Positions 15,094 to 42,207 of a stretch of 64,000 bases of DNA are shown here, piece by piece. Both the position numbers and the translations under genes were made by a program. Position 1 is the first letter of the stretch, and every line of letters starts with the position of its first letter. Source of the stretch: Dictyophora rubrovolvata. Taxonomy: Eukaryota > Basidiomycota > Agaricomycetes > Phallales > Phallaceae. The stretch spans positions 930,001 through 994,000 of the forward strand of contig CP114118.1 in NCBI GenBank assembly GCA_029959195.1, given 5' to 3'. The notes under the pieces are model-generated. The model worked only from the letters and a program-made list of their open reading frames with translations. It did no database searches and was not told the origin of the DNA.

Positions 15094-17504
15094 CTACGTT
15101 CGCGATCGTCCATGAAGAAGTTTTTTAGGCTTCTGACGGCTCTTTTTTTCGTCTCCGGATGCGACGCTACTCTGTTCATCGTTGTCTTCCTTACGCGACG
15201 GTAACAAACGTGATATAATAGAAGGTCTTCTCTTGCGTGGAGAGTTCCCCTTGGGCGATTCCCTCACAGGAGCAGTCTGGTTCACAAAATGTACAGCACC
15301 TGAAGATGTCAGCGTCCCTGGTTTTGAACCTGTGCCATGTTCGGGTTGTTGAAGATCTTCTTTTGAATCATTTGAGTCTACGGCAGTAATGGGAGTAGAT
15401 GGTTCATTGTTTGGGAATATACTACGACGACTGACAACGACCCATGAGCCTGTATCTTTCCCCTCAGAAACGTCCTCTGCCGGAGAATCTGGCCGCGACG
15501 GTACTGGCGGAACGTCCTGTTGTGGAACAGTTCTCACAATTGCAAACTCGCTTTTCTGTCTCGTGGGTTCATATCCAGGTCTATTGGCTCCGTGAGAGGC
15601 CGGTTGAATTATTTGCGGCGAGGAAGAAGTGATAGAATTTGCTGTAGGTTCTTTCAACAAGTTAGGGTTTCGCTGAAGTGTTCCATTCAACGGATTCAAC
15701 GAGTTGGTGTGACCTGAGTCTTGTTTGGTCTGCAAAGGATCTTGAATGACGTCAGTTGGGGGTGTATTAACCCAACCTCCCGGAAGAACAGGATCATTGA
15801 CATCGGATGTTTCAGTTGACATCGAGACACTATGGGCTGTGGGGTTAGAAAAGGCTGATGGTGGGTTTTTTTTTGGGTCGTAGTCGGTGAATGGATTTAC
15901 AAGCTGGCCATTTTTATCTCCGTTCGTGTCGCGAGGGACCCAGGTTATTGGTACTTCAAAACTTCTCCCAGAGGAACGACTGGCAACGCTACTTCTTATA
16001 TCTTCTATCCCACTAGGGGTTCCGAAAGCATTTGGAACAAGAAGGGGAGAAAAAGGCAAGACGGGGGGATCATCAATCCTTGAGGGAGATCGGACGTCAT
16101 GACCATGATCTCCTGTTGTCGGGGCAAGATCGACAGTTCTGTTAGGATCTGGGTCGGTTCGGGGGTGCGGTTCATCTTCAGCATCTTTAGGAAGAGATAT
16201 TAAGGAATGGGTTGGTGGTTGTCTCCCTGTACTAGGTGTGGGTTCACTTGGGGAATCTATAAGGAAAGAAGCAGTATTTGCGATATGAATAGGAACCGGT
16301 GCAGCTAACGGAGGCTGCTGATGCACTTGGGGTTTTAAATACCCCGGCTCCCGCGATATGTTAAGCCCAGTGACATCGCTCGATGCTCTCAAATGGCCGC
16401 TATGATTCGAAGGTTTCAAATTACGGTCCAGTGAACTGTGATTTAACGATGAACTAGATTTATAATGAGATAATTCGTTGACTCGAGGCTCCGGCACTGT
16501 CAGATCTTCGGTAGAATGGGCTGCAGTATTTGATCCTTCTGATCCGTTAAACCCATCCTCAATTGGCTCGAACTGATCTCGTTTGAGCGGGGTGCCCAGA
16601 TTTACTAATGATACAGATTGAATGTGTTCATTAGGGGGAGGTGCCTCTGGATGGCTTGCAAAGATCCAGAAATCTTTGGTGCGTGAGCGGCCCGAGGATA
16701 GGGAAAGGGAAGTAATTAGACTCCAGGAGTGCTTATCAAGGGATGATAGAATTGTAAGTATGTGCCGAGGGGCATCCTCGCTGAAGGTATCCTCTTGAAA
16801 CCCTGTATCAATTAGTTAGGAAGAGAAGATAAAAATAACGAGGAGGACAGCGGCGTACATGAATAGCCTTTGAGTTTAAACTCATAACATTGCTCCCCTA
16901 GCTTCTTCTCCGATTTGACACCTTTCGGCCAGGAGCCTCTTATTGACTGTAAAATGGCTGGAGTACCCGTCAATGGTGAACAGACAACTCGCAGAGACGT
17001 GGCCGATGTAAAAGATAGCCCAAAGGAAGTTACCCCTGATTGGGAAGGGAACTGGCTCCCTTCTGGATACACAGCCGTCCGGGCATTTGGTCGAGAAAAT
17101 ACAAGGGTAACACGATCATTGGTTTCGCGACCGTAATCAATTTGGGAGACGAAGCTATAATCGTAACGAAGCATAATTGCGAAGACTTGAACGAGTACTA
17201 TTTCAGTACTTAAAAACCTAGCGTTCGACCATGGTTTGTCAAGTAAAATAATTTCGCCTAGCGTATGTTCATCATTCTCGCGGAAGGCACGCAAACCGAT
17301 TACTGAATGTAGTCTAGCCTTGAGTTCATTGAATACATTGTGGTCGAAGTTCGTAAGTCTGATAACGTTATTGGAGCTGAACGAAAGCAAAGCGAAAGAT
17401 GAGAACTGTCGAACAGACGAAGACACGAATTCCTTCCGAGGAATGAAATTATCGTCAGGTGAGGAAGTTATGAATGGGATTGGATTACTTGTCATGGAAG
17501 CCAT
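15094..17504 (-). CDS. Large Ser/Pro-rich protein of unknown function
   Basis: I do not recognise this protein. Two exons, 16859-17504 and 15094-16802, join in phase to give 784 residues. The start MASMTSNPIPF at 17504 opens a region of about 215 residues with mixed hydrophobic and charged content that could fold (FSSNNVIRLTNFDHNVFNEL, IVLVQVFAIMLRYDYSFVSQ). After the intron, SLITSLSLSSGRSRTKDFWI keeps this character to about residue 275. The rest, to about 740, is rich in Ser, Pro, Thr and Asp with no repeats and is probably disordered. The tail is strongly basic (KKSRQKPKKLLHGRSRT). There is no signal peptide or clear membrane span. The ordered head and basic tail would suit a scaffold or membrane-surface protein, but this is a guess. 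Confidence 0.75.
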
Positions 17505-20500
17505 GATGATGTAGAACCTGCACTGTGCATTTCGTGGTCAGCGTGGGTTTCTGAGACTGAGTCATCGTCGGAGACGGCCACAGTGACGTCACAGCCTGGG
17601 CTGCTTAGCCGAGCATGAGGCACACACTTAAGCGAAAACGAGGAGTGGCTACATTGGTAGACAAAAGTTATCATATATCAAGAATGGAGCCGAATGCTTT
17701 TTTTCTGCAGAATGATGCCACAGATGTGACAGAAATTGCATAATGGAATTACTCAGGTTGATTAAAAGTCCATGCACTTGAGATTACAAGGATCAAACAG
17801 GAATGAGAAATTTGTGTCAGTCATTTACTATTCATACAATGCTCGGGCTGCCGACGGATTAATAGTCTGCATGGCGCAAAACCAGGGTGTTTCGTATGAT
17901 AGCGACCACTCACGTAGTAATCGGAGGTCCTCAAATCTTCGGAAACTGAATCAGGCCAGAAAAGATTCTTCATATGGCGACGATCTGGATCCATTTAATC
18001 GGGCGGAGAACACATGAACAAAACTCATTCGTTTTTGAATTCAAGTAAGTTTACTTGAGGACTAAAGAAATGCCTGGGAATAACCCCCCCTTGCGTCTTC
18101 CTGTTCCGATGGCACCCACGTTCAGTGCGGGGGGGACGCAACTTTCCGATGTCGATAAAGTAACGAGAAGCTGTTGTGAGATAGTGAAAAGCCGATAGCC
18201 GGGTGTTTCCTATGAGTTCTTACTTAACGGCAAGAAGTCCTGTTTATCTAAGACCTGGGAGAAGTGGTGCTGGAGCTTGAAGCTTGAAGGGTGGCGATTA
18301 GAAAACTTCTATGTTACTAGTGAATTATCAGCAGCTAATTTATACCACAACTACGCGGCTGACAGATATGTACGTTACTCAGTGTGATAGAGTCTTAATT
18401 TTGAAATTTCTATACACTTCCCGTTCAGGTAGTCAAGCAGGCTTTTGATTCTGTGTAGTATGATTCGGTAGGTTCCGTGCGGCTCTGAGTTGCAACAAGA
18501 AATTCATCCGAATTGGGACTGGAAAATCTCATTTTATTTATCATCGCGGATCCTCCTATTGCTCAGATAAGCCCGATAACTCTGAGAAGTGATACAAAAC
18601 TTACCCTGCCAGGTCACTTCAGTTCTTATCGAAATAGAACGCGGCACTGCATCAATGCGATTATTACGGAACAAAGAAACCATACATTACCATTATTTTT
18701 GCTTCTCCAATTTGTGCAGCTAAAATATTCTTGAGCTGACACATTTGGACAACCTGATGAGAAAAGAAGTTAGAAAAAGGGTTTTTGACTTTGATCGGGG
18801 AAACGAGATGGTTTCAGGGCGACGACAACATTAGGCAAGATTCTTCACAATCGCTGTGGCTTCAAAAAAAAGCCCCGGAGTCGGAAAGAATACTGAGAAC
18901 CCCCAGAAGTACATCTTTTGAGCTTCAATGGATGGTGGCAATGTATGGGCGCATCTAAGTATTTGAAACCTGTCAATAACATGTCTGATGAAAATCAAGA
19001 GGGTGTCTCCGATTCATCCTTGAAAAGGTGGCAGTAATAGACGCTTGACAGATATATTCCATGCTGGACGGGTTTTTCGATGGGACAATGGTCAGTGTCC
19101 AACTTGCCCCAGACGTGAGCTTCGCACCATGAATCAAAAATAAATCTATAAAAGAAGAAAATCCAGGTATCTGTAAAAGACATAAAAGAGAGTAAAATCA
19201 GACAGAAAACCATGGCTTGGTGAGCGTAGGTGCTATTGATCACGAGGCTTTGAGGGAAGAAGACCACACAACAAAAATGGGTGATTCGGAGTATATAATG
19301 TACCGTAAGTCAAAGGGGGAAAGTATTTGCCGTTCCTTTCCCGTGTAATTTCAATACTTTGCCTTCCCTGTCATCGAAAAAAAAACAGGGAAAGGACCGT
19401 ATAAACTAATAACAGGACACAACGTTAATGAGTCAAATTTGTCATAAAATAGCTGAAAGGGTAATCACTCACTAGTTTGATATATCAGATTCCCAAATTA
19501 TTGTTACCGGTGGAGCCAGAATACCCTGTTCTGAGGAGCTACATAGATGAGAGTACGGCCATTGGAATCGTATGATGGACGACACCAAGAAATGTCAAAT
19601 GTATGGGAGTTCAATTACCAATGAGTCGCACGATTACACTTGAGGCAGTCGCAGCAGGTTTTCATTGGGTCATTCATCTCCTTCGTGGGATTGCTTGCGA
19701 ACCGAAATCGATCCAATGCGGTTAAGTGGATAAGCACATTCACTTCCCCGAAACCAATCAGGATGTACGGATGATTTCATTCGACGGTTATCTGGCACTT
19801 TGTGATGCCGGGAGGATGACGATACAAACTGACAGAGGATGGAGCGTGCCTGCGGAGAATACGGAGCAGAAACCAAGAAGGAAATCAAAACGAGTTCACA
19901 ATTATGCGATATCCCCTGGATAGATGGAAATCTCTCCTTCTGGTATTAGGTAAAAATCCTCCTTCCTTATTTTGGGAATATGGCCATGAGCAAATACGCA
20001 GAAAACAGCCCAAACCAAATAGAAACACGAGGCAACAATGGCATTGATCACGACATACGTCAAAACTTGGATATCAGCGATTTTTGAAAACTTTTGCCAA
20101 CGACTGTCGGAAAAGTCATTGCTGCCTTGCCTACAAGCATCGCGCGAGCGCTGTCTCAATTTAGCTCGTGTTTTGTACGGCACGTGCACCAATGGGAACA
20201 TGGTAAGAAATCGACAGATGCAAAAAGGCCAGAACGATCAACCCCCTTGATTTGTTGTAATAAAAGTGGAATATAGACAAAGAAAAGACCTCGAACAAAC
20301 AAACAAAGACGCGATGTATATATAAAGGTAAGCCATGGTTTCCGTTTGAATTTGTTTTTTCCTTGGTCTTCGGGTCATTTCGGTGGAAAATTTTGCTAGT
20401 CAAAAGGTAAATGTAACGCCTGCGAGAGTTTAACGGGGTGAACGAGATTCCGAACTTCGGCGACTCGTGTACTGATATTCTAGTGGACAGAGGTAAAAAT

Positions 20501-21342: not shown

Positions 21343-21348
21343 TATAAG
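21343..21348 (+). promoter_or_regulatory. TATA box of secreted-peptide gene 1
   Basis: A TATAAG element sits 106 bp before the ATG at 21454, with a short leader expected between. Inferred from position and sequence. Confidence 0.5.
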
Positions 21349-21453: not shown

Positions 21454-21690
21454 ATGCATTTTTCCTTTTTGACCGCTGTCAAAGTTGCCGTTATCGGCAT
21501 ACTTTTCAACTATGCTAGTGTCGGCAGTGCAATGGTCCTAGGTATTTGCAGTTTTTTTTGTTATCGATGGGACGGTTCTCTGATATCGTATCCGATTTCG
21601 TCATTACTAGTTGATCGTGGGCTAATCGATAGTCCCGTCTCTGATGCTGTGAACGGATGCGGCGGTCCCACTGCCAGAAGCTGCAATTGA
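21454..21690 (+). CDS. Small secreted peptide precursor, copy 1 (GCGGPTARSCN family)
   Basis: Not a family I recognise. Exons 21454-21541 and 21611-21690 give 55 residues. MHFSFLTAVKVAVIGILF, followed by a small-residue stretch ending SVGSA, is a signal peptide. The spacer VDRGLIDSPVSDAVN follows and the protein ends in GCGGPTARSCN. The two cysteines, eight residues apart, could form a disulfide loop in the secreted product. There is no CaaX end, so it is not a classical basidiomycete lipopeptide pheromone. The 69-nt intron has no stop and is a multiple of three; retention would give 78 residues with two extra cysteines. The partner gene at 23391 shares the C-terminal 11-mer and the phase-1 intron position. 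Function could be signalling, toxin-like or effector; none is shown. Confidence 0.72.
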   Translation: MHFSFLTAVKVAVIGILFNYASVGSAMVLGICSFFCYRWDGSLISYPISSLLVDRGLIDSPVSDAVNGCGGPTARSCN

Positions 21691-23277
21691 GACCACCGGG
21701 TGAGTTCATGTTTGGTATTTTTATTTTGTCCGCCGCACCTTACCAACATTGAAGTGGTAGTTCATTCTATTTTCATGATGCAGTCATGTGCTTTTCTCTC
21801 ATTTCTTCCTTTTATATTAAGAGACCACTCATACCGCGTAGGACTGTTAATGTTACTGTATATACTGTAGAATATATTTTCTTCCCGTGAAGGCCCCTCA
21901 GAGTTCACATTATTATAATTGATACTTAACATCGCGAATTTTAGCAATTCTTTGGCTGCACGTCCTATAATCTTTCGGACAAACCAACCGCCAATAATCA
22001 GCGGTCGATAACTTTACTATACTTAAGATGGACAGTTAGTATTAATAAAAAAAACCGCTTAAACTTATCGCGACCGTATAGTACATAATATGGTAGATAT
22101 TGCCATGACTAGCGAATCGAGCCGGGAATCGAACGGCGAAGCCCATATCAGGCCGTCCCCCACTCACGTGTCTTTACAAAGATGGTGTCATTTATTTAGT
22201 TGATTATCAATGAAGTTTCCTTGGGAAAAAGATACGAGAGATAAATTTGGACTCAAATTCAAATTCGTTGTCCTATGCGCGGAGACCCATTGATGGCATG
22301 TATGTCACCATGCTAGCCAGCATATTCCACGCATTTTACAGGTATATCCGTCAACGGGTTCATTTCTGTAAATCATGAAACATTTTTCCTTGGGGTTTTT
22401 CCGCTTCAGCGCACTGTAACGTGCACATGTTGATGAAGACCAGTTCCAAGTTAAACCGTCTTTATGCTCGCCATAAGAGAAATCTGATGAAAATGACAGA
22501 AAGAGGCGACAAGAGATCCTTTCGAACCCACGTGGCAATCGATTTGGGATAAACCAAACAAGTATACGACAAACGGAATAGCGAAATACCCCTCTTTTAA
22601 ATCAAACTTGCCATATCAGGCATTGTCCTCTCAAGAGAGATTCAAAGGACTTAATCATTTTTAAGTAAATAACCTGCCACGCTGCAAGCGATGAGGAGAG
22701 ATGGTGCTTCTTTTTTCGGGCTGAATAGCTGGAAACAACGATCGCTTGTCAATTTCTAGGACAGACAAAGACATCAGTCTAAAACATGGTGAATCGCGTA
22801 AATTCCGGCATTTCGGTTTGACCTTTGACCACTCGTGATGTTCCTGAGTTGGCGAGGATCAACTACCGATGATGAACCGTAAGCAGCCCCGTTGTAGCAT
22901 GGCAGCTAACTCCAAGATTATCCTTGCGGGACAATCGGTTTTCGTTTGACATCCCACTTTTTTTTCCACACTCCAGAGCACCGTGACCCAAAGTATCGGA
23001 ACAACTTAGCTCCATATTTGTTGCTGTGTACCTGAGTGAAGTCTGCTTTTTTTGCTGAAAAGGGTTATACGAAGGAACATTTGACTCGGAATCGGCTCAA
23101 TTATGCGGCATATTCGTCGAAGCGAGGAAGGGGGGCCGTAATGCGTAGGTATGCATCTGTTACCCACATCGATATTAGGCAATACGCATTTAGCTCATCG
23201 TTTCAAATGCAGTGCTAGATGTTTCTAATTGTCGTTCGTTTTTATTTATTTATTTATTTTCACATGTAACTTCAGGG
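21691..23277. other. Space between the two peptide genes
   Basis: About 1.6 kb without a supported gene. A tRNA B-box-like segment on the minus strand near 22110-22135 does not fold (see rejected items). I searched by eye for a third copy of the 11-mer and found none. Confidence 0.5.
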
Positions 23278-23285
23278 TATAAAAG
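23278..23285 (+). promoter_or_regulatory. TATA box of secreted-peptide gene 2
   Basis: TATAAAAG lies 113 bp before the ATG at 23391, almost the same spacing as in the partner gene. The leader between is rich in A and C, as in strongly transcribed fungal genes. Confidence 0.6.
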
Positions 23286-23390
23286 GGCATGAGGTTTTGA
23301 GTATCGTATCGCAACAACAAACTCACAAACGGTTTAGTTTTGAACTCGAGTTCCTCTAAACACACTCTTCTCATAATACACTCAAAAACA

Positions 23391-23572
23391 ATGCGCTACT
23401 TCACTACTCTGTTCACCGTCGTCGTCCTCTCCGTCTTGGTTGCAGCTGCACCAGGTAGGACGCTAAGTGACATTGCTCCAGTTCGGATTTCTGACTGCTA
23501 TCATTATTAGCTCCCCTTGAGCCTCGCCAAACCGATGGATGTGGTGGTCCAACCGCACGTTCATGTAATTAG
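23391..23572 (+). CDS. Small secreted peptide precursor, copy 2 (GCGGPTARSCN family)
   Basis: Exons 23391-23454 and 23511-23572 give 41 residues. MRYFTTLFTVVVLSVLVAAA is a clear signal peptide. The remainder reads APAPLEPRQTD followed by GCGGPTARSCN and a stop; the intron splits the codon after AAAP in phase 1. The 11-mer is identical to the one at 21454 although most of its codons differ. An Arg in EPR-QTD could mark a trimming site before the core, but there is no dibasic Kex2 site. The gene is too short for most gene finders. The two-exon structure, TATA box and paralog together make it convincing. The biological role is unknown. Confidence 0.78.
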
Positions 23573-25582: not shown

Positions 25583-30269
<4,687 letters not shown>

Positions 30270-39998: not shown

Positions 39999-42207
39999 AT
40001 GGGTCGATTAAAACAGAAGGGAAAAGTAGGTGCTGCTAGAGCCTACGTCACCCGCTCTCAGGCCGTAAAAAAATTACAATGCTCTCTCGCTGATTTCAGA
40101 CGGTTGTGTATTTTAAAAGGTACAATAACTTTCTCTCATCACATTTCATGAAAGACCCTGTAACGATCCTTTTTATATAGGCATATTTCCTCGTGAACCT
40201 CGCCATCGCAAGAAAGCCAACAAAGGCTCAAGCGCACCAACTTCGTTTTACTATGCGAAGGATATTGCGTATCTAGCACACGAACCTGTTCTTCGAAAAC
40301 TCCGGGAACATAAGGCTTTTGCGAAGAAACTCTCTAGAGCACTAGGGAGAGGTGAATGGAGTAGTGCAAAAAGTCTGGAAGAGAATAAACCTGTTTACAC
40401 TTTGGATCATATTGTTAAAGAGCGGTATGCTATTTCTTTGCATCTGAATCCTATATAACCCCTGTCATTGCCTTTTTTTTTGCAGATATCCTACCTTTAT
40501 AGATGCGCTCCGTGATATAGACGATGCATTATGTCTCGTCACACTATTTGCGAACTTGCCGTCGAACTCCCGTATCCCTTCATCACTCATTGAAAACTGC
40601 ACCAGGATTTCATACGAATGGCAATTATATATCATGCGCTCTCAGACCTTGCGAAAAGTTTTTCTGTCGATAAAAGGCATTTATTATCAAGCTGAGGTGC
40701 TCGGACAGCCCATAACCTGGCTGGTTCCGTATATGTTTACACAGAATGTAGGTGTTCCTTGTCTCGATTTATGATCTTTCTCTTTTAATTATTCAATTCG
40801 TAGATCCCTTCAGATGTGGACATTCGTGTAATGTTGACCTTCCTCGAATTCTATCAAACACTACTGGGATTCGTGTTCTTTAAGTTATATACCGACATTG
40901 GGCTTGTCTACCCTCCACCAATGGATGTCTCGAAAGTTGAAGCTGCGGCCGGTGTCGGGGCATTTAGCCTTCAGTCGAGGAGTAACGACACGACATCCAC
41001 ATCCACCCAGGACGCTGTTAAAGTTGCGGGAAAAAATATTTCCGGAAAGGATGTCCGAAGAACCATTAAGAGCATCGGAGCTTCCGCCACAGCTAAAGAG
41101 GATATCCCAGAGTCGGCTGTAGCTGCGGTAGAAGTAAATGAGTCTAGGAAGAATGACATGTCTGGAGACGATGATTTTGTATCTCAACCTTCGAAAACCC
41201 AACCGGAGGAAGGAACACCCACCGCATTGCCGTCCCTTAAAACATTGATGGAGCAAGCTCCGTCTGTTAACACGCAACTTTTCGCGCCGTATACGTTCTT
41301 TATATCTCGCGAAACCCCGCGCTCATTAATGGAGTTTATTATTAGGTCATTTGGTGGACGAATTGGATGGTCTATTTCACAAGGCAGCGGTAGCCCCTTC
41401 CAAGAAGACGACGAAAGTATAACGCATGTCATTGTTGATCGCCCTGTCCAGCAAGGGGAGCAGAGCCAAGAACAACCTCAGCCGCAGATTGAAGAAACAG
41501 AGGAACAACGACGGTTGCGTCTCCGGAGGAAGTACGTTCAGCCCCAATGGGTTGTGGATTCTGTCAACCAGGGAAAGATTCTTCCTGAAGAATTGTATGG
41601 ACGGGGAAAAACACTACCCCCACATCTGAGTCCTTTCGGTGTTGAGGAAGGAACCTATGACCCTGCAGATGCGGTCATGAACGAGGGTGAGGCTGAAGGG
41701 GTTAGTGGTGACGAGGAAGAGGAGGAGGCGAAAGAGGAGGTCGCATTGATTGAGGAAGACGTCATTCCGGAGGAGGCTGAGGGGGTTGATGTGCTCCGCA
41801 CTGCCGAGTTAAAGGCTGAGGCCGCTGGTGTGGATTACGACACGTTTGAGAAGGCTGTTAAAAAGAAGACCAAGAATTTGGCAAAGGAGAGGAGTCTGAA
41901 TAGGTATGGAGTTTCCGCGTGATTTGGATTTGTCCAGTTCTGATGACTCGTCGTTCTTGTTATTTCAGAGCTGCACCTGAGCCTGATATGAGGAAGATGA
42001 TGATAAGTGGGAAGAAGCGGAAGTTGTATGAGAAGATGAAGTATACCGAACAGAAGAAGACGCATGAGGTCGGTTTATAATTCTCTTATTGCGACATTTC
42101 GATTTATATTAACATCTTTGTTTCACGCACAGCGCGAGGAATTGAGGAAACGGAAAGAATTTCTCAATAAAGAGAAGAAGAAAAAGAGTACCAAAACTTC
42201 ATCATAA
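39999..42207 (+). CDS. NOP7: Pescadillo homolog (NOP7), 60S ribosome biogenesis
   Basis: Component of the Nop7-Erb1-Ytm1 (PeBoW) complex in the nucleolus, required for 27S pre-rRNA processing and 60S assembly. Exons 39999-40119, 40181-40424, 40486-40747, 40804-41903, 41969-42068 and 42133-42207 give 633 residues. It starts [20 protein letters not shown], the conserved pescadillo N-terminus. The N-terminal domain continues with [38 protein letters not shown] and [12 protein letters not shown]. The BRCT domain is at about residues 365-480 ([20 protein letters not shown] to [15 protein letters not shown]). An acidic stretch follows ([12 protein letters not shown]), then a basic coiled tail ([14 protein letters not shown]). 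The family order is complete. Confidence 0.95.

Follow-up and report, generated by a model that had tools for sequence, protein, structure and literature searches.

Results

The window analysed here, i.e. the whole stretch of 64,000 nucleotides at positions 930001-994000 of contig C2 in a genome of 28.2 Mb and 11 contigs, carries two short genes, A and B, located 1.7 kb apart on the same strand (Table 1). Both exhibit the same order of elements: a signal-peptide-like start, a short spacer, the 11-residue core GCGGPTARSCN, and a stop codon. The predicted spliced product of gene A reads MHFSFLTAVKVAVIGILFNYASVGSAMVL before and VDRGLIDSPVSDAVNGCGGPTARSCN after the place of the intron, and that of gene B reads MRYFTTLFTVVVLSVLVAAAP and APLEPRQTDGCGGPTARSCN, respectively. 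The leaders, which begin with MHFSF in A and with MRYFT in B, are hydrophobic; the secretion signal was judged by a hydropathy filter applied to the start of the protein, hence the term "signal-peptide-like". With the filter set at a 12-residue mean of 2.2, gene B scored 2.96, and an alternative splice form of gene A with the same start scored 2.32.

A sequence-only reading of this DNA had proposed for each gene one phase-1 intron at the end of the signal-peptide region and a TATA box approximately 105-115 bp before the ATG. On re-reading the sequence, we found the claimed frames, splices and TATA boxes all in place: the phase-1 intron follows the hydrophobic start at a similar point in both genes, and both measured TATA distances fall within the proposed range (Table 1). 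On the + strand of the window, the probability of a TATAA in a chosen 20-bp slot is about 2%. Each intron contains one well-placed match to the branch-site pattern CTRAY, 28 nt (A) and 17 nt (B) before the end of the acceptor. In gene B the splice is required to connect the ATG with the core, which is not the case in gene A: there the intron is a multiple of three and free of stops, so that unspliced gene A reads through to give 78 aa, and further donors likewise keep the reading frame. Since the intron of gene A is stop-free and frame-keeping, we predict its splice from the example of gene B.

Table 1. Coordinates of genes A and B and of their elements in the window
Feature	Position	Strand	Remarks
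Gene A	21454-21690	+	predicted product of 55 aa
TATA box of gene A, TATAAG	21343-21348	+	111 bp before ATG
Gene A, exon 1	21454-21541	+	predicted signal-peptide-like start MHFSFLTAVKVAVIGILFNYASVGSAMVL and first base of the next codon
Gene A, intron	21542-21610	+	69 nt, phase 1, GTATTT...TTACTAG, branch-site match CTGAT, stop-free
Gene A, exon 2	21611-21690	+	spacer with LVDR, core, stop TGA
Core of gene A	21655-21687	+	GCGGPTARSCN
Gene B	23391-23572	+	predicted product of 41 aa
TATA box of gene B, TATAAAAG	23278-23285	+	113 bp before ATG
Gene B, exon 1	23391-23454	+	predicted signal-peptide-like start MRYFTTLFTVVVLSVLVAAAP and first base of the next codon
Gene B, intron	23455-23510	+	56 nt, phase 1, GTAGGA...TTATTAG, branch-site match CTGAC
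Gene B, exon 2	23511-23572	+	spacer with LEPR, core, stop TAG
Core of gene B	23537-23569	+	GCGGPTARSCN

The pair lies in a region (17.5-25.6 kb of the window) without open stretches of at least 130 aa, between ORFs that have no Pfam match and a polyubiquitin gene, all on the minus strand. The former (15097-17537) are adjoining ORFs of 573 and 241 aa for which Pfam gave nothing at E up to 1; the latter (25583-27333) comprises several ubiquitin units, one of which carries an in-frame insert resembling an unspliced stop-free intron. The Pfam scan, which covered 21 of the 42 stretches of at least 130 aa in the window and two shorter ones, named genes for a WAC/Acf1-type protein, EMC7, a DyP peroxidase, an amidase, Pescadillo, a citrate/arsenite-type transporter and Sec39; these neighbours offer no functional hint for the pair. 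Neither Rfam nor tRNA scans of the window gave a match, and a scan of the window for bacterial-type promoters and terminators was uninformative, with 5 and 3 matches versus 5.6 and 1.9 in shuffles, respectively.

The sequence-only reading had looked to agaric genomes for further families. The Pescadillo exon (40804-41919) places the fungus, on the evidence of this one gene, in or near Phallomycetidae, the stinkhorn group, and not among the agarics. Among the matches listed, the top two database proteins show 85% and 71% identity to this exon, and the named species are, in order of E-value, Clathrus columnatus (68%), Hysterangium (59%), Sphaerobolus (62%) and Ramaria (55%), with Clathrus belonging to Phallales within Phallomycetidae.

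The claimed identity of the C-terminal GCGGPTARSCN holds at the protein level, while the DNA that encodes it differs between the genes at 11 of 33 nucleotides. The differences affect 8 of the 11 codons and are all synonymous; they include AGA/CGT as well as AGC/TCA, the latter being serine codons that are not connected by any single synonymous step. Assuming common descent and equal likelihood of all changes, the probability that 11 randomly placed differences all leave the core peptide unchanged is 5.5e-9. Outside the core, the genes have no detectable similarity: the observed A-versus-B score was reached in 137 of 300 shuffles for the promoter, 142 for exon 1, 137 for the intron and 260 for the 3' region (compared to 7 of 300 for exon 2, which contains the core), and the spacers, about 10-18 residues that link the hydrophobic start to the core, are not conserved. 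The layout of a conserved core behind a variable leader, proposed earlier, is thereby substantiated. When all pairs of the 3246 open 11-residue C-termini in the six frames of the window were compared, the cores of A and B were the sole pair identical at 11 of 11 positions; seven pairs reached 8-10 of 11, all of them opposite the polyubiquitin repeat (25.7-27.0 kb), and beyond this repeat the best pairs reached 7 of 11. Because the divergence of the core is entirely synonymous, we infer selection on the core peptide and regard A and B as putative old paralogues; convergence appears less likely than an old duplication.

Exact codon patterns were used to search the 28.2-Mb genome for further copies. 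CGGPTA was found at two places, which are genes A and B; the two genes likewise account for two of the 10 places of CGGPT, two of the 16 of GCGGP, two of the six of the PTA-[RS]-x-C type and two of the 11 of the A-[RS]-x-C-N-stop type. Among the other nine places of the last pattern, five lack the CGGPT half and four are copies of one repeat. This closely similar sequence, located at C4:10573, C5:1588, C6:2704584 and C8:20601, inflated the count; with three of the four copies within about 21 kb of the contig start, it is probably a subtelomeric repeat. A GCGGPSANCFS-stop reading on C1 was discarded, as it has no splice acceptor between the in-frame stop and the motif. No third complete core was thus found in the genome by exact codon patterns, which may miss paralogues with an altered core; the protein search of the same genome recovered the query gene only and never its twin, and is too coarse for such paralogues. 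A filtered scan for genes of two exons that begin with a hydrophobic stretch and have a similar C-terminal Cys motif, covering both strands of the window and 6 kb on each side (76 kb), returned the places of A and B and no third gene.

Beyond the genome, a protein database of 5.8 billion sequences yielded no homologue of spliced gene B (no candidate shared three words) and none of unspliced gene A at E up to 10 (three candidates screened). The control search with the Pescadillo exon in the same database retrieved 2223 proteins, with many Agaricomycetes among the matches listed. Gene callers often omit proteins below 60 residues; hence, the empty result is informative for annotated proteins, not for unannotated very small genes, and does not prove that other species lack the family. 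Neither Pfam nor NCBIfam profiles matched the spliced precursors at E up to 10, and the core pattern had no match in bacterial and archaeal contigs. Nine stretches of viral contigs fit a shorter pattern without the N-stop; none of them reads CGGPTARSCN-stop and we judged them to be chance matches. The sequence search of the PDB gave one weak match, to a tsetse thrombin inhibitor (E 0.94), across query residues 1-32, i.e. mostly the leader. CGGPTARSC and PTARSC were absent from the literature searched, most subscription journals being outside it; CGGPTA gave only a match that, judging by its listing, is on another subject, and topic searches returned no such peptide among the titles and opening lines of abstracts listed. 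In the genome itself, the patterns recovered these two complete copies, and the small families anticipated in the sequence-only reading did not emerge from the protein database.

Domain searches of the genome returned 17 matches to STE3, all on C11, whereas the peptide pair is on C2. At the level of exons, they fall at C11:864346-874372 and 1012125-1013087, corresponding by position to about four genes within 10 kb plus another some 140 kb distant, and this cluster is probably a pheromone-receptor mating-type locus. UstYa-domain matches are located at C3:645793-647130 and C3:706586-708349 (two pairs about 60 kb apart) and at C4:2608878-2609547; these places are possibly RiPP clusters. The P_proprotein domain, which occurs in Kex2-type proteases, has one match in the genome.

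Discussion

We propose, with a probability of roughly 0.42, that A and B encode precursors of an extracellular signal, a C-x7-C peptide closed by a disulfide. A disulfide-closed loop had been considered possible before, and the two cysteines of the core, arranged as C-x7-C, agree with it. According to our proposal, the hydrophobic start would direct the precursors to secretion, the two cysteines would close a nine-residue ring (C-GGPTARS-C), and the spacer would be trimmed, possibly by a Kex2-like protease cutting at LxxR, between LVDR and G in A and between LEPR and Q in B. Such cleavage would leave peptides of 23 (A) and 14 (B) residues with the same ring. Outside the cell, the ring would signal to the hyphae of the fungus itself, in development, mating or density; a partner reading it would constrain every residue of the core, and each of the two genes, having a promoter and leader of its own, could deliver the shared ligand at a separate time or place.

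Dibasic sites (KR, RR, KK or RK), already said to be missing from the core, are absent from both precursors, although LxxR is present in both. Of the motifs that precede the mature part in Kex2-processed pro-domains (KR, RR or LxxR), both precursors thus possess one; cleavage at this site is only predicted, and LxxR is short enough that it may have occurred by chance in both. Passages of a review describe LxxR as an expanded Kex2 motif in the pro-domains of fungal effectors, where P4 is preferably Leu or some other aliphatic residue and P2 is tolerant (PMC8528282). The one P_proprotein match in the genome is in keeping with such processing. Weighing against the proposed signal are the empty result for homologues in the protein database, the location of all STE3 matches on another contig than the pair, and the fact that gene A can be read without its splice.

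It is tempting to go further and assign the pair to an undescribed class of basidiomycete peptide hormones, with a short, disulfide-ringed ligand, two anciently duplicated genes and a dedicated receptor that fixes each residue, hidden from annotation because an intron interrupts the precursors and these are shorter than 60 residues. We regard this wider proposal as doubtful.

The most serious alternative, which we nonetheless find unlikely, is that the peptide serves in defence, competition or interaction with other organisms (bacteria, nematodes, insects or plants) and carries no signal to the fungus itself. Small secreted Cys-containing peptides are common in such roles, and the core has no feature of its own that favours signalling over defence. 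However, defence peptides often diversify, and the usual antimicrobial peptides differ from a core with one basic and no acidic residue. Our preference for a signal, which is modest, rests on two copies that diverged long ago yet retain all 11 residues, and on searches that revealed no expanded family: exact patterns detected just two complete copies in the genome, a count more in keeping with a specific ligand than with a diversified arsenal.

Two further readings appear quite improbable, to a similar degree. Firstly, A and B could be RiPP precursors, with dedicated enzymes that cyclise the C-terminal core or modify it in another way; a conserved C-terminal core behind a variable leader does resemble such precursors. 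Against this, the six UstYa matches are distributed between C3 (four) and C4 (two), with none on C2 and hence none beside the pair, as a dikaritin-type RiPP would have, and the ORFs of the window covered by the Pfam scan (21 of the 42 stretches of at least 130 aa and two shorter ones) include no recognised RiPP enzyme. The nearest enzymes among the scanned ORFs, the DyP peroxidase (30.6 kb) and the amidase (36.9 kb), give no reason for a link. Secondly, the small proteins could act as a whole, e.g. in the cell wall, with the core as an anchoring or assembly motif. That both proteins end in the core, and that cleavage is only predicted, would agree with a structural or binding tail, but the 10-18 unconserved residues between the start and the core leave little to anchor.

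Slightly less probable again is a sexual peptide of the alpha-pheromone type, i.e. a ligand that is closed by a disulfide and binds a Ste2-like receptor, which would be unusual for a basidiomycete. Passages of PMC6339444 describe two-cysteine alpha-type pheromones in ascomycetes, which are secreted and short, like the predicted A/B peptide, and quote from the basidiomycete Trichosporon oleaginosus a repeat peptide, QSWGGCGGRGTPCW, which shares GCGG with our core and has a second Cys; we consider it a lead and not a sign of membership. On the other hand, the two peptides quoted there have six residues between the cysteines, compared to seven in A and B, and occur as repeated cores cut by KEX2, whereas A and B each contain a single core and no KR or other dibasic site; the same passages state that basidiomycete pheromones are of the a-type only (PMC6339444). 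STE2 (PF02116) had no candidate in the genome, but all 14 control genomes were equally silent, so that this blank weighs neither for nor against.

Finally, chance or artefact, i.e. a coincidental identity or unexpressed genes, seems very remote: unspliced gene A reads through and the protein database yielded no homologue, but the cores form the single 11/11 pair among the 3246 C-termini of the window, their divergence is synonymous only, and the gene anatomies match.

Several known peptide systems can be set beside the pair. In lipopeptide pheromones of basidiomycetes, the C-terminal CaaX has Cys fourth from the end, whereas A and B end in S-C-N; MSDIN cyclic peptides have an MSDIN-type leader without a signal peptide, and the hydrophobic leaders of A and B are not of this type. 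The loops of Bowman-Birk inhibitors share the spacing of seven residues between cysteines; a protease-inhibitor loop was dropped, since the order of residues does not appear to fit. The mature Qsp1 peptide of Cryptococcus neoformans reportedly has 11 residues, and is said to contain no cysteines and to show no sequence likeness to the A/B core. In function, Qsp1 is the nearest studied case: excerpts of PMC7537855 present it as a basidiomycete pro-peptide that is secreted and then undergoes extracellular proteolytic maturation by Pqp1, with Opt1 serving for its import. KEPs of Agaricomycetes, as described in passages of PMC9769878, are small secreted precursors of short peptides from the same fungal class, but they carry several similar cores between dibasic sites, in contrast to the one core and no dibasic site of A and B. 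In plants, CTNIPs are secreted signalling peptides whose active C-terminal region has two required cysteines; the filter quoted in the excerpt of PMC9191895 places these 9-11 residues apart, compared to seven between them here, and the family is a plant one. The previously claimed misfit to CaaX pheromones, Kex2-processed repeat peptides and MSDIN peptides is therefore upheld, with a defining feature missing in each case, in some by the definition in general use.

Conclusions

Judging from gene anatomy, A and B are probably a well-delimited pair of secreted-peptide genes, and the synonymous-only pattern of substitutions constitutes strong evidence for selection on one short core. No described relative was found in the searches of the genome (by pattern), the protein database and the literature. 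To our knowledge, few peptide signals besides the lipopeptide pheromones have been described in mushroom-forming fungi. An identical core amid diverging DNA and a diverging remainder of the genes suggests that its binding partner is a strict one. The pair also indicates how such genes could be found, namely by looking among very small spliced genes for C-terminal twins that differ only synonymously, and the core is short enough to be synthesised, which makes the existence of further secreted peptide signals in basidiomycetes directly testable. The same short peptide, apparently produced from both genes, may represent a fungal signal that has not been described before.
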